Origin: a virus
Virus record (IMG/VR): IMGVR_UViG_3300003409_000027
Span: 4,849-25,794 of that record
Length of the DNA: 20,946 nucleotides
Strand: one strand, 5' to 3'
Shown here: positions 3,553 to 17,000 of the stretch, in pieces
Layout: each line of letters opens with the position of its first letter
How positions within the stretch are numbered: position 1 is the stretch's first letter
Program-made: the position numbers and the translations under genes
Notes under the pieces: model-generated
Databases searched by the model: none
The model's input: only the letters and a program-made list of their open reading frames with translations
Told to the model about the DNA's origin: nothing

Positions 3553-3822
3553 ATGGAATGTAAGAGCGCAGAAGATTTTGACTTAGTCAGACAAGAAGTA
3601 CGCAAGTGGCGTAAGCGACATCCTATGTTCAAACATGATATTGAACGGATCTCTGCCATTATAGAAAATCACATATCAGAACATAGTAAGATACTTGTTG
3701 ATTATAGAAGAACAAGAAACCAAAGATATCTTGAAAAAGCAAATAACGAAATACAAGAAATAAACAGAATCATGTCGACTGTTGGAAAGGTGGAACTTAT
3801 GGCAATTTTATCGCAAGGATAA
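3553..3822 (+). CDS. Small basic helical protein, unknown function
   Basis: The product is 89 residues, rich in Lys, Arg and Glu, and predicted almost wholly helical, with a conserved-looking RKWRKRHPMF segment (residues 17-26) and a C-terminal helix ending in MAILSQG. I do not recognise a named family; small proteins of this style occur in marine T4-like phages. It could bind nucleic acid or a partner protein, but nothing shows which. The gene stands alone between a terminator and the next late promoter. No Shine-Dalgarno sequence precedes the ATG, and the possible promoter at 3538 leaves almost no leader. Its TAA stop (3820-3822) is part of the next promoter. The coding character and flanks make it a real gene; a start at Met25 would lose the basic N-terminus. 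Confidence 0.7.
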   Translation: MECKSAEDFDLVRQEVRKWRKRHPMFKHDIERISAIIENHISEHSKILVDYRRTRNQRYLEKANNEIQEINRIMSTVGKVELMAILSQG

Positions 3823-3826
3823 ATAC
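3818..3826 (+). promoter_or_regulatory. T4-type late promoter overlapping a stop codon
   Basis: GATAAATAC at 3818-3826 matches the T4 late box TATAAATA(C) except for the first base. The TAA stop of the small helical gene lies inside it. It is followed by an 89-base leader and a gene with a good ribosome binding site, so it probably drives the four-gene unit 3912-7058. Confidence 0.72.
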
Positions 3827-3829
3827 ATT

Positions 3830-3911
3830 AGTCATAGAGCGTGCCTCTACGATGAGGACTTATGCGGTTACCCGCCGCGTATTACTTAGAACGTAACTAT
3901 AGGAGAAAACA
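3830..3911 (+). other. Structured 5' leader of the four-gene unit
   Basis: Two small hairpins are visible: CCTC (3844-3847) with GAGG (3854-3857), and a 7-bp stem 3861-3867 with 3875-3881 (one G-T pair) around the loop TTACCCG. TTAC occurs at 3868-3871 (loop) and 3882-3885. Both can pair with GTAA at 3893-3896, just before the AGGAG (3901-3905), so alternative folds or a pseudoknot next to the ribosome binding site are possible. I recognise no known riboswitch. Confidence 0.45.
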
Positions 3912-4268
3912 ATGGGACGTCCAGTAAATAAAAGAAACTTTGGTGCCACAGGCGCCACACCATCAACTATCCCTGTCAGATTTTGGGATGGCGATTCATC
4001 TGAAGAAGGCTATGTAGTAGCACAAAAAGGTACAAACAAGTTTAAAGTAACAGATGGTGTAACTACTATCACAGGTAGACTTGTAAACGAAATTGCTCCA
4101 AACGGCGCAGGCGAAATTTCAATCGTTGGTATTGCTCCAGGAAGCACACCCGTTATTCTTAAGAAAATTTTCAACAGAACAGCGGTTGATTGGAACAACA
4201 ATCGTTATACTTGGGAAGCACAAGATGACTCCTCACAGTCATTATTGATCCTAACACCTGTGAGCTAA
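3912..4268 (+). CDS. Small virion-associated protein of marine T4-like phages, unknown role
   Basis: The product is 118 residues beginning MGRPVNKRNFGATG. This start, the middle VVAQKGTNKFKVTDG (residues 36-50) and the terminal NRTAVDWNNNRYTWEAQ (88-104) resemble, from memory, a small beta-rich protein family common in marine T4-like myoviruses and usually annotated only as a structural or hypothetical protein. Alternating hydrophobic strands suggest a compact beta fold. There is no signal peptide, membrane segment or enzyme motif. It has AGGAG at 3901-3905 and is first in a late unit whose other products resemble fibre or baseplate accessories. It is thus probably a virion component, by context rather than by a domain hit. 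Confidence 0.7.
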   Translation: MGRPVNKRNFGATGATPSTIPVRFWDGDSSEEGYVVAQKGTNKFKVTDGVTTITGRLVNEIAPNGAGEISIVGIAPGSTPVILKKIFNRTAVDWNNNRYTWEAQDDSSQSLLILTPVS

Positions 4269-6206: not shown

Positions 6207-7058
6207 ATGAAATATTTAAAAACACAGAACTTATCAAAATTTAGTGCTCAAGATAATACTTTTAAAGTAGAACATCCTACTGGTCAAGTTACTGTGAATT
6301 CTAAGGATAGTATGCTACTACCCAAAGGCGAGATAGCAACTAGAACTTATTTTCCTTTTGAAGGAATGATTCGTTATACAACTGACAATACTAATCAACA
6401 TGAAAATCCAGAACTATCTCAACATTATCCTAATGACGCAGTTGGGTTAGAAGTTTATCACGAAGGTACATGGTATCCTCTAAAAACTACAAGACCTACT
6501 AAAATTATCAAGCAAAACTTAGGCGTTGGCAACTACGATGTAGTTTCACAGCCAGTTGAAGAATTAAGTCAATACTTTCCAACATATGATGCTAATAGAA
6601 ATTACACAGGACTAACTTATGTTCCTGGTTTATCACACGGCTTAGATCCACAAGACTATATTGACAATATGATTGTTGTAGTTGAAAACGTTATTCAGAT
6701 TAGCGGAACAAACTACGAATTATATCAATCTCAAGGAGAGATTGTAGGTTTTACTATTACTAGCGCAGGATCTAGTGATCATACAACAATGAGCATTGGT
6801 GTTAGTACTAGCGATTCAACAGGAAGCGGTGGCACATTTACTGCTAATTTAGACGGTAGCCCAGGCACCTTAGACAGCGTTACTGTTGTTGACGGTGGTG
6901 TAGGATTTAATGATGCGTCATTAATTACTGTAACAGCAACAGGTGATGGAACATCTAATCCAACACTAGAAGCATACGTTCTTCAACCAGGATGGCATTT
7001 AAAACTTCTCTCAGCCGTCCCTGATACTAAACCAGTTACAATTTACCTCGGTTATTAA
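6207..7058 (+). CDS. Virion structural protein with cap-like 'GMIRYTT' motif
   Basis: The product is 283 residues. Residues 36-100 contain LLPKGEIATR...FEGMIRYTTD...GLEVYHEGTWYPL, a version of the cap motif (R-P-x-x-G-x-I-R-Y-N, then a GTxW turn) that ends both giant proteins downstream. After it come an Asn/Tyr-rich region and, at about 180-260, a Gly/Thr-rich beta module (GFTITSAG..., VTVVDGGVGFNDASLITV) similar to those in the 512-residue protein. The C-terminus, WHLKLLSAVPDTKPVTIYLG, is typical of structural beta proteins of marine phages. The ATG is only 3 bases after the previous stop with no clear ribosome binding site, so it is probably translated by re-initiation. It is likely a fibre or fibre-attachment component; this rests on shared modules. 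Confidence 0.68.
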   Translation: MKYLKTQNLSKFSAQDNTFKVEHPTGQVTVNSKDSMLLPKGEIATRTYFPFEGMIRYTTDNTNQHENPELSQHYPNDAVGLEVYHEGTWYPLKTTRPTKIIKQNLGVGNYDVVSQPVEELSQYFPTYDANRNYTGLTYVPGLSHGLDPQDYIDNMIVVVENVIQISGTNYELYQSQGEIVGFTITSAGSSDHTTMSIGVSTSDSTGSGGTFTANLDGSPGTLDSVTVVDGGVGFNDASLITVTATGDGTSNPTLEAYVLQPGWHLKLLSAVPDTKPVTIYLGY

Positions 7059-7064
7059 TCTACC

Positions 7065-7095
7065 TGCTCCTACAATAAATACAGCATAAGGAGCA
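7065..7095 (+). promoter_or_regulatory. Hairpin that hides the protein A ribosome binding site, with a late promoter in its loop
   Basis: TGCTCCT (7065-7071) and AGGAGCA (7089-7095) form a perfect 7-bp inverted repeat with a 17-base loop. The right arm contains most of the AAGGAG (7088-7093) that serves the ATG at 7100. The loop carries the late box AATAAATA (7074-7081). RNA started from that box would begin near 7087-7088 and lack the left arm. No T tract follows, so it is not a terminator. Confidence 0.72.
7074..7082 (+). promoter_or_regulatory. T4-type late promoter for protein A
   Basis: AATAAATAC matches TATAAATA(C) except for the first base. It lies between the stop of the preceding gene (7058) and the protein A start (7100). 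The expected start site, about 6 bases after the box, leaves a leader of only about a dozen bases that begins at the Shine-Dalgarno sequence. Confidence 0.68.
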
Positions 7096-7099
7096 ATTC

Positions 7100-10000
7100 A
7101 TGTCTAACACTCTAGGTCGTATTTCCGGTCAAATGCTTAAAGCAAACCTTGAAAGGTTTGGTGTTGATCTTGCCTTTGAAAATGACCTATTATATCTAGA
7201 TGTAAACACTGGAAAAGTAGGCATGAAAACGTCTACTGTACCTAGAGACTTAACTTTAGACGGAGATATGGCTACAACAAACTTAATTGTTGATGCCGGA
7301 TTATTTCAAGTCGGTGATGTTATTATTGATGGTAGTACTGGCAACATTTCTACGGTAGGAAATGTACCGATTACATTTGACCCTGCTACTGATCAAATAT
7401 CACTGAGCATATTAAAAACCCCAAATATTGTTATTGATAATAGCACTATACAAACTACGGAATCGAATTCAAATTTAGAATTAAGAATTTCAGGAAACGG
7501 TCGTGTAGAATTTGGTTCAGACGATTCTGCTTTTACTGATACTTTAGTTCAAGGTAATCTACACACAGTTGGTGATGTAACACTAGACGGAACAATTAGC
7601 TTTGGCGATAGTAGTTTAGAAGACGCAGTATCTGTTAATGGTGAAATTGGATCAGATATACGTCCTACAGTTAATAGTCTCTATGATTTAGGATCTCCTA
7701 CTAAAAAATGGCTAAATGTTCATTCTCAGTTAATTCGAGGCGATTTCTTAACCACAACAAATTTTAGTGTTCCTGGCATTTCTACAATTAGTGCTAGACC
7801 TGGAAATACATATTATGTAAGTTCAGCAGAAGGCAAAGACACAAATGTCGGTAATCATCAAATGGGTCCTTTTAGGACTGTAAAACATGCTTTGAGTCAA
7901 GCAACTGCTGGAGATATGGTGTATATCTACGCAGGGGATTATGAAGAATATTTTCCCTTAACTGTTCCTAAAGGTGTAACTGTACAAGGCGAAGGAATTC
8001 GCTCAACAAAAATCTATCCCCATACTAGTAATAATGATAAAGATGCTTTTTTGCTAAACGGCGAAACTACTGTTGAAAATTTGACAGTGGCAGACTTTTA
8101 TTATAATAGTACAAATGATACTGGATATGCGTTTAGATTTGTTAATAATTTCCAAGTTGACTCTCGAAGCCCTTACATAAGAAATATTTCAGTTATTACA
8201 AGATCAGACAGTAGTTTAGAAAGTGCTGGCCGCGGCGCATTAGTTGACGGTAGTGTAGCAACACAATACAGTAAAGAAGCCAGTATGTTATTTCACAGCG
8301 TGACATTTATCACACCAGGAAGTACAGCACTGTTTATGAAAAACGGTGTAAGGGTTGAATGGCTCAATTCATTTACATATTTTGCTAATAGAGGGTTATA
8401 TGCTGTTAATGGAGCATTTGGCAGATTAACACCGGACGGTAGCACTATTAAGTATGGTGCTGAGTTGCGCTCAATCGGATCAGCAAATGTGTATGGAAAT
8501 ATCGGTGCTGAAGCAGATGGTAATCAATGTTTAATGTATTTGATTAATCATAACTTTGCTTATATTGGTGCCGGCACAGATGTAGAAAATGACCCCACAT
8601 TGGTTGATCAACCTAAAGAAACTATTGAAGTTTCTGGAGGCAAAATTTATTATCAATCATCAGATCAAGGTGGCGATTTTAGAGTAGGCGAAGCATTTGT
8701 TGTTGAACAGCAAACTGGTTTTATTACAGCAAATGGTATTGGAGGAGGAGCGCAAGGTGCTTCGAGTATTAGTTTTAGCGACGGCGTTAATAATACTGAA
8801 ATTGATGCTTCTAGTGTTGACACTGGAAATGTACAGTTAACACAGAATAATATTAACACAGTTGGCGGTGATTTAAATGTTACTCCTGCGAGCGGACAAA
8901 CAACACTAGACAGTAATGTTACTGTACAAGATACGTTAACAGTTGACGGTGATATGGTTGTTACTGGAGCGATTAGCTTTGGAGATAGTACACAACAAGG
9001 TGCTTCTACTACTTTTAGTTTTAACGCACCTGTAAGTATTAACTTAGAACCAACATTTACAAAATCTTACGATATCGGTTCTGACACCTTTAGTTGGAAG
9101 AATGTGTATTCTGTAAGGTACACTAGTAACGATATTAATATATTTCAAAATAAAATTTACACTACAGTATCTAGCAGTAGTCTTGAATTAGATGCTGCCG
9201 GCACAGGTAGAGTTGTTTTTAATTCTCCGTTAATTATTAACAACAATTTTACAGTTAGCGACACATCATTACAAAATGTTGGTATTACAGGAAGTTTGTT
9301 ACACACAGGCGACCTAACTCAAACAGGAAATAAAGTTGTAACTGGAGATTATACACTAAGCGGTGCTTTATCATTAAATGATATTGATGTGCCGTTTGAT
9401 GGTATTAGCATAAACGGAAATAGAATTGAAACAACAGAGTCTAATAGTAATTTAGAACTACACACAAGCGGAAACGCTAGTGTTATAGTACCCAATAATA
9501 ATCTTAGAATTATTGGTGACACAACAGTTCAAGATGTGTTTATTTCAAACACAGCAACCATTACTGGTACACTTTCAAGTGACGAGTTCTTAACTGATAG
9601 TTTACAAATATTTCAAAATAACATAACCGGTATTACTAATGCTGATATAGAATTAAGAACTATAGCAACAGGCATAGTCCCATCATCTATAACTTCTACA
9701 GCAACTATATCAAGATTTGAATTCCAACCTGGCAGTGATTATAATCAAAGTGTTTCAGTGTTGTACATAGATACAACTGATTGGGATATTAGCGGTCAGA
9801 CATTCCCACAATATTTAAAAGGTACAAATACAGTTAACGGAGAGTACTTTTTAATTGAAATTGATAATCCAACACCTAGCGTTGGAGATCAGTACATTTA
9901 TGATGTAACACAGCATGTTTCTTCATCGGCTTCAACTATTACTATTAATCAAAGCGATTTATTTAATTTAGAACTTGGTACTGTTTTAGGTGATATTGGA

Positions 10001-13957: not shown

Positions 13958-13965
13958 TATAAATA
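13958..13965 (+). promoter_or_regulatory. T4-type late promoter for protein B
   Basis: TATAAATA is exact, followed by CTATTG, close to the extended T4 late consensus. It lies 13 bases after the protein A stop. Initiation is expected near 13971, giving a leader of about 95 bases. Confidence 0.85.
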
Positions 13966-13972
13966 CTATTGA

Positions 13973-14066
13973 TTACAAGATACGACCATTTTCTTGTATG
14001 ACTAAACTGTGGTAAACCCGCAATGTAAGGTGGTTATCCGTGAAAGACGGAAGTTAGGAGAGCGAA
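13973..14066 (+). other. Structured 5' leader of protein B
   Basis: One 7-bp hairpin pairs TACAAGA (13974-13980) with TCTTGTA (13992-13998). A second pairs TCCGT (14037-14041) with ACGGA (14047-14051) around GAAAG, just before TTAGGAG (14054-14060). GGTTATCCG (14032-14040) resembles GGTTACCCG (3866-3874) in the leader of the earlier late unit. I see no known riboswitch that fits fully. Confidence 0.45.
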
Positions 14067-17000
14067 TTGAGCCAATTAGGTCGAATTTCGGGTCCGCTCT
14101 TGAAGGCGAATCTTCTTCGTAACGGAGTTGATCTAGCCTTTGAGAATGACCTTTTATATCTAGATGTTACAAATGGAAGAATTGGTATCAACACCAGTAC
14201 GCCAACACACGACCTACAAGTTGTTGGTACTACACGCACTACTAACTTAGAAGTTACAAATTCAGTTTCACTAGCAGATTTTAATATTACAGGAAGCACA
14301 GTCACAAATTCAACAGGTGATATTGCTTTCAATTCCCCAGTCATTATCAATAACGGCTTGTCTTTTGACAGTATGCGTATTTCTGATAACTTTATTGAAA
14401 CAACAGATTCAAACGCAAACTTAGAACTACGCACAAGCGGCACAGGTATAGTTGATATACAGTCTGATTTATTAGTAGGCGGCAACTTACACGTTAATGG
14501 AAATATTACAGCAGACGGTACAATTTCGTTAGGTGATAGTTCTACAGATGTTATTAATTTTAATGCTGAAATTGCTAGTGATTTAATACCTGATCAAAAT
14601 GAAGTATATCAAATTGGTTCTGATCCATCTGACTCAACCGGAAAACGTTGGGGAGATCTTTGGGCATCTAATTTGTATGCTGACTCTGTATTTTCAGCGA
14701 ACATTATTATTGATGGTATTAACTTAGCAACAAGACCTGGTAATACCATTTATGTAGGAACAACAGGCGACGATACAAACAACTCAGGAACCCACCAAAA
14801 CGATCCTGTGCTTACTGTACAAAAAGCAGTTAGTCTTGCTTCAGCAGGAGATACTATTTGGATTTACCCAGGCACATACGAAGAAACATTTCCTATTGTT
14901 ATCCCACAAGGGGTGATTATTAGAGGTACTGGTATTAGAGCAGTATCTATTAAACCAACTGCGGCAACAAGAAACAAAAACGCATTTGAAATGAATGGCG
15001 AAACAACTGTTGAAGATTTAGCAGTTGTTGATTTTGAATACGACAGCGTAAACGACACAGGATATGCGTTTGCTTTTGCTAATAATATAACAGTTACAAG
15101 TCGCTCGCCATATGTTAGAAACATATCAGTACTAACAAAAGGTAGCACAGTAAGATTAGGAACTAATCCTCCGGAAGATCCTTTAGGATTTGACGCAGGT
15201 GATGCTGGCCGCGGTGCTAAAATTAATGGTAGTGTTGCTAATGCTTCAAGTAATGAAGCAAGTATGCTCTTCCATTCAGTTACATTTATTACTCCTGGTG
15301 TTGACAGCATTGTTGCTCTTAACGGAACAAGAGTAGAATGGCTCAACAGTTTTGTTTATTACGCAAACAGAGGTATGTACCTACAAAGTGGTACTGCTGG
15401 TTTTGCTGGTGACGGTAAAACAAGAGTTAAGATTTCAAATACAACTGGTACTTTTGCTGTAAATGACACACTAACATATTATGATACTGACGGAACAACA
15501 GTTTTAGCAAGCGGTACTATTGAAAGTATTAGTGGCGACTTTTATAACATCGACGGAAAAGTTATAGGGTTTGAAACCCTTGAAGATAGAGCAGGCAAAG
15601 TTGGCACAGCATACGGTAATGCTCAAATTGATATAGATCAAGCAAAGTTTGGTGTTTCAAGTTTACTACTCGATGGTATCGGTGACTATTTAGGATATTC
15701 AACCCAACCAGATTTTGGATTTGGAACAAACGATTTTACAGTCGAAGGATGGTTCAGACTGTCTGCCACTGGCATTGAACAAACATTATTTGATTTTAGA
15801 AACGGATCTGACGCTGATTTAGCACCACTTGTTAGAATTAATACTTCTAATCAAGTAGAATTTGCTCCAGCAGAGGATTCAACGCAGATAACAGGAACAA
15901 CAAGTTTAACATCAGGAACTTGGTATCATATTGCTGTTTCAAAATCTTCAGGCTCAACAAAACTATTTGTAAACGGAACAAATGAAGGTGTGGTATATGC
16001 CGATTCAAACGATTACGGTACAAGCAAACCATTAACAATTGGCGCAACACACAACGCAGTTAACTTCTTTAATGGACATATAGATGACATACGAGTTTCA
16101 AACGTTGCTCGCTATACCTCAACGTTTGCTGTACCAAGTTCAGCTTTTACTAGTGACTCAAATACTTTACTACTTTTACATTTTAACGGAACCGATGGAT
16201 CTACAGTAATTGTTGACGACGGTATTACTACGCAAGACATTAGAACAACCAGTGGCGGAACTGCTAGTAAGATCGATTTTGCTAACTATTCAGACTTTGG
16301 TGTTGAAGTAAGAAGCATTGGATCAGCAAACGTATACGGCAACTATGGTATATATGGCGACGGTGACGGTGTTATTGCTTACCTTATTGGACATAATCTA
16401 GCATACATTGGCGCAGGAAAGTCTAGCGAAAACGACAACACACAAGTAATACAGACAAACGAAGTTACAGAACTTAACAGAGCAAAAATTCTTTACAATA
16501 CAGTTGACCAAGATGGTGATTTCCGTGTTGGCGAAAACTTTTATGTTAATCAAAGAACAGGCGAAGTTAGTTTTTCAAACAGCGAGCTTGCTGTAACAGG
16601 TAATTTGACATTTACGTCTGGTGGTGATACTACCTACATTGATGCTACTAGAATAGATACTGGCAATTTAAGGCTAAGTGGTAATACTGTTTCTAGTACA
16701 AGCGGAGATATCAACGTTGATCCGTTTACTAATCAACTAAATCTAAACAGTGACGTTACAGTAACTGGTGATTTAAACATTAATAGCGATGCTACTATTG
16801 GCGGTAACTTGATTCTAATTGGAGATATTGTCCTTAGTGCTAAAATTGATTCGGATATTATTCCAAATGCTGATGACACATACAATATTGGTGCTCCGAC
16901 ATATCAATGGAAAGATGTTTATGCTTCAAGATTTATAACTGAAAACATTGAGATAGACAATAACAAAATTAGAACTCTTGATTCTAATAGCGATCTCGAG

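Follow-up and report, generated by a model that had tools for sequence, protein, structure and literature searches.

A late-promoter hairpin over the ribosome binding site of a giant virion gene in a T4-like phage as a candidate translational read-through filter

Why should the late promoter of a giant virion gene sit inside a hairpin that covers the gene's own ribosome binding site? The gene encodes protein A and lies in the window, the stretch of 20,946 nucleotides analysed here, which is part of a 28,930-base IMG/VR virus record of a T4-like phage. The gene order is head maturation protease, Gp23 major head protein and then fibre-type virion genes. Direct reading of the sequence in front of protein A revealed two arms that pair perfectly over 7 bp and cover the Shine-Dalgarno sequence (SD) AAGGAG, with a late box in the 17-base loop between them, exactly where the preliminary description had placed them (Table 1). 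The box, AATAAATA, has one mismatch relative to TATAAATA. An A at -13, the first box position, occurs in 9 of the 50 listed T4 late promoters (PMC2988020), and cyanophage S-PM2 is described as having NATAAATA as its late motif (PMC2984593). In all of the 22 loci compared, the protein A gene is preceded by an ORF whose C-terminus is similar (...(G/N)(Y/F/L)D(Q/K/R)-stop); in the window, the C-terminus of this upstream gene is ...LGY-stop.

Table 1 Features of the protein A locus and of the cyanophage start regions used for comparison. Positions are those of the window unless a contig is named.
Feature	Position	Strand	Remarks
Upstream late box GATAAATA	3818..3825	+	likely source of read-through RNA
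Co-directional upstream unit, ORFs of 118, 512, 123 and 283 aa	3912..7058	+	
Upstream gene, 283 aa	6207..7058	+	
Hairpin left arm TGCTCCT	7065..7071	+	7-13 nt past the stop codon of the upstream gene
Hairpin loop, 17 nt	7072-7088		
Late promoter box AATAAATA	7074..7081	+	within the hairpin loop
Predicted late mRNA 5' end	7086..7088	+	+1 = 7087±1, inferred from the T4 box position
SD AAGGAG	7088..7093	+	anti-SD duplex -7.2 kcal/mol
Hairpin right arm AGGAGCA	7089..7095	+	covers the SD
Protein A start codon ATG	7100		
Protein A, 2281 aa	7100..13945	+	beta-helix/FG-GAP giant tail-fibre or baseplate-type virion protein
ACG-2014f / S-CAM7 start regions compared	L164:2945-3040 / L166:547-642		Synechococcus ACG-2014f isolate: start region at about 196971 of KJ019085

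RNA folding gave the hairpin as the sole predicted structure of 7060-7105, with -9.3 kcal/mol at 37 C and -13.0 kcal/mol at 15 C. The hairpin is predicted on the long RNA and is gone from the fold of RNA beginning at 7087, as the preliminary description had anticipated, and the computed cost of opening the SD is 8.0 kcal/mol on the read-through RNA versus 2.0 kcal/mol on the late RNA. An intrinsic terminator was considered and rejected because no U tract follows the hairpin: the sequence after it is ATTCATG, without a T tract, and the hairpin is absent from the terminator scan. No curated covariance model in Rfam matched 7065-7095. The only Rfam match in the window is the freshwater-2 RNA (RF02980) at 3843-3914, just past the upstream late box, where it makes up the leader of the upstream unit; freshwater-2 also lies 2.4-3.3 kb upstream of the related genes in L018, L019 and L030.

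With a probability of about three in four, we interpret the arrangement as a translational filter on read-through RNA at protein A, of the kind known from T4 gene e and I-TevII. RNA arriving from the upstream late unit would contain both arms, so that the SD of protein A would be held in the 7-bp stem and 30S binding would be poor. RNA from the late box in the loop would start at about 7087 without the left arm, carry AAGGAG at its 5' end and be translated. With the long RNA closed and the late RNA open, protein A would thus come chiefly from its own late promoter, and its synthesis would be independent of how much the upstream unit yields. The arms, the box, the SD, the folding, the recurrence in orthologues and the rarity elsewhere come from sequence and computation; the start site, the read-through transcription, the degree of repression and the purpose are inferences.

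The predicted start follows from the position of the T4 late box, which is -13 to -6 relative to +1; RNA from 7087 retains the SD and has lost the left arm. In 13 related contigs, the ATGs near late boxes, counted for ORFs of 60 aa or more, peak exactly 5 nt past the box, at 21 sites (some of them near-copies in related contigs), whereas two control words gave about 3 sites at each offset. This peak is the pattern expected of leaderless late mRNAs from +1, and it supports the predicted start. Most of the 5-nt sites have no SD-preceded alternative start nearby. Late boxes with an ATG exactly 5 nt downstream are seen upstream of the window (L047:3543-3557, G000) and in related contigs, and this sequence pattern makes leaderless late mRNAs probable in several gene families.

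Two T4 systems were recovered as positive controls by the same SD-occlusion calculation. In gene e, opening the SD on the long RNA costs 13.5 kcal/mol; as at protein A, the SD is in a stem on the long RNA, the late promoter or promoters lie in or beside the left arm, and the left arm comes just past the upstream stop. I-TevII, with an SD opening cost of 11.7 versus 0.4 kcal/mol, is alike in CCTCGTATAAATATGAATACGAGG, with the late box in or at the loop, and in a box-to-SD gap of 7 (6 in the window). The settings differ. The gene e hairpin acts on read-through RNA of the early phase and guards against premature lysis, whereas here the gene is a giant virion gene and the recognised upstream promoter is late; I-TevI, I-TevII and I-TevIII are intron-encoded and are carried on early/middle td or nrd transcripts (PMC2988022). 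Sequestration of the ribosome binding site (RBS) in T4-related phages is also described for Aeh1 mobE and T4 segB (PMC3014915, PMC2988022), which differ in being free-standing homing endonucleases and are likened here by description, not by sequence. Further late T4 genes reported with RBS-sequestering structures are soc and 49 (PMC3014915) and 39, 25 and 26 (PMC2988022). However, soc scores as unoccluded in our calculation (1.75 on read-through RNA), which indicates that some reported cases escape the measure or are modelled wrongly by it, and the stem of gene 49 is independent of the sequence 5' of the box (p 0.52). Both therefore differ in geometry from the protein A hairpin. The preliminary description had likened the layout to genes e and soc; the likeness is supported for an SD-hiding hairpin with late transcripts that lack the left arm, as in gene e, and was not recovered for soc by our calculation.

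The pairing might be due to chance, or be a by-product of conserved promoter and SD sequences, given that the SD and the box are constrained, that some orthologues are weak and that the arm has been lost in one cyanophage lineage. Total folding energy is not the evidence on this point, because the 81-nt fold as a whole has a modest z-score of -1.4; this measure was dropped as uninformative. When the 45 nt upstream of the box were shuffled, the SD occlusion of the window was reached with p 0.005, and grafting in the 5' half of each of 45 other late promoters gave p 0.022 for the window, the floor of the test. Because it was the window that prompted the test, the independent evidence comes from the orthologues. 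Of the 435 good-SD starts in the 13 related contigs, 5 have at least 5 SD bases covered by a perfect inverted repeat of 7 bp, and 4 of these 5 starts belong to the protein A gene. In a survey of 74 late-box starts in these contigs, the protein A starts are outliers in the phages where the gene has the promoter, with SD costs of 5.6-9.3 versus mostly 0.2-4 elsewhere. This rarity, the lack of such a hairpin at the late starts of other genes, and arms that differ in sequence and sit in different registers all argue against chance, which we regard as improbable.

Orthologues down to 41-55% identity have an SD cover built from other arm sequences. Close relatives (75-79% identity; L001-L007, L016) pair TCCTTACA with TGTAAGGA across a 10-nt loop; L019, L020 and L066 pair CGCTCC with GGGGCG, the L070 group pairs CTTCGACA with TGTTGAGG, and L130 pairs TCCTATA with TATAGGA, its left arm overlapping the box. 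In a gapless alignment, the left arm occupies columns 13-19 in the window, 15-22 in the L001 group and 16-21 in the L019 group, and in all three registers the SD columns are covered. Column-wise covariation of the arms is inapplicable to arms in different registers; the structure is rebuilt, not inherited column by column. That relatives rebuild the arrangement with different sequences makes it look functional. In L018, L142 and L135 the hairpin spans or flanks the SD and the left arm lies mostly between the box and the predicted +1, so that a late start would remove it, while L133 and L143 have the promoter with weak SD occlusion. Taken singly, several groups are weak as well, with graft p values of 0.1-0.26. 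Thus the comparison of arms in homologous phages, which the preliminary description had proposed, yielded several different arm pairs that retain SD cover, and weak cover in two cases. Graft p values for the SD are at most 0.043 for the window, L001, L002, L003, L007, L016 and L130, 0.09-0.11 for L019, L020, L066 and L070, and 0.17-0.33 for the hairpin types cut by the predicted start. L021 and L026 were rejected as hairpin-less protein A orthologues: their matches are the B paralogue, and the true orthologues of these contigs are L066 and L069, with the L019-type hairpin. L138-L140, L144 and L145 have no credible start with an SD and were excluded from the comparison. A search of isolated-phage DNA with 6207-9500 gave no match.

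The orthologue series also forms a natural experiment, with promoter and hairpin present or absent together. Two clades, separated on the supported tree, have no late box, and strong SD cover was also not found in them; opening the SD costs 1.1-4.0 in these clades. The protein A start lies 10-15 nt past the upstream stop without the promoter versus 22-41 nt with it. The median SD cost is 7.3 in the promoter-bearing and 3.1 in the promoterless loci (Mann-Whitney p 0.0004, the rows being related), and the presence/absence contrast comprises only two independent pairs, in the expected direction or tied (sign test p 0.5). A comparable case is the giant "baseplate wedge initiator" gene of cyanophage ACG-2014f, where the late box lies under a very stable hairpin that hides the SD (14.7-15 versus 3.5 kcal/mol). 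S-CAM7, with SD and start identical to those of ACG-2014f, has kept the late box and lost the left arm (5.3 versus 1.9), indicating that such hairpins can be dispensable and can come and go. A tentative generalization, to which we give a little less than an even chance, is that T4-like phages use late-promoter hairpins generally to insulate the translation of neighbouring late cistrons from one another. The protein A locus would then alternate between a promoterless, tightly spaced state with an open SD and a state with its own promoter and a closed SD, the hairpin being re-invented with new arms and geometry.

For what purpose might protein A be shielded from read-through RNA? The preliminary description had proposed control of timing for a very costly protein. 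In classic early/late timing, as in T4 gene e, the hairpin would block premature protein A synthesis from early or middle RNA. The architecture is the same as in T4 e and I-TevI/II, the RBS hairpins of T4 belong to late genes that are carried on early/middle transcripts (PMC2988022, PMC3014915), and overlapping early and late promoters are thought to be used by cyanophages (PMC2984593). However, the nearest promoter recognised upstream of protein A is the late box at 3818, the upstream genes are of the virion type, the intervening ORFs resembling fibre proteins, and sigma-70-like matches are no commoner than in shuffles (39 versus 44), the scan being uninformative on early promoters. A late upstream promoter in front of virion-type genes implies that the read-through RNA is probably late too, and timing, which is thus not evident as the purpose, appears unlikely. 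Nor does cost alone explain the hairpin, since these phages have further giant ORFs (1902-3761 aa) whose late promoters are not set in such a hairpin. A better fit than early/late timing would be that the hairpin insulates a single late cistron from the late unit upstream of it.

Somewhat less likely than timing is translational coupling, in which ribosomes finishing the upstream gene would melt the hairpin and protein A would be made in proportion to upstream translation. The left arm starts 6-9 nt past the upstream stop in the window and in the L001 and L019 groups, and lies inside the upstream coding sequence in the L070 group; a ribosome terminating on the upstream gene would overlap part of it. 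Because the stop precedes the left arm in the window, though, melting would be partial and brief. T4 gene e is similar, nudE ending 37 nt before e, yet its repression is about 100-fold (PMC3014915), and the SD is open in the closely spaced promoterless relatives. A phage repressor site, of the kind that T4 uses as a hairpin operator for gp43 (PMC3014915), is at odds with arm and loop sequences that are unconserved between groups except for the late box and the SD; for an mRNA 3'-end stabiliser or processing site, the U tract after the hairpin is missing. We rate these roles as marginally less probable even than chance pairing. The read-through filter, in turn, follows a hairpin principle already known from phage T4, with a possibly new use. 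It would carry a textbook T4 device, familiar above all from lysozyme and homing endonucleases, over to a virion gene in uncultivated T4-like phages of marine/freshwater origin; the probably late nature of the incoming RNA suggests a second use, in which a late cistron is kept independent of its neighbour.

Protein B, a paralogue of protein A, has a leader of its own. A perfect late box at 13958 is followed by a leader of about 100 nt with the core CTGTGGTNAACCCGCAANGTAAGGTGG (window 13958-14066). This core has at least 81 matches in a scan of the collection, the window included, and a wider core is found in at least 77. Among the matches listed, the wider core generally follows a late box by about 50-60 nt and closely precedes genes starting M..GRI(S/T)GPLL; 25 of 49 carry a variable 5' stem of at least 8 bp, compared with about 4.5% of shuffles, and 45 different arms occur. 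The leader has no above-chance match in Rfam and is a candidate for a new, widespread structured leader RNA. Proteins A and B (window 7100-7190 and 14067-14160) have a paralogous N-terminus in common, LGRISG..LKANL...GVDLAFEND, and this type of N-terminus also occurs on other giant fibre-type proteins in relatives. In L030, L031, L032, L035, L036, L040 and L042, the stretch of about 60 nt in front of paralogous starts holds another conserved leader, ATACCCGGGCTCACCC(A/T)GGAATGAA...GAGGTG(A/G)AGGAG.
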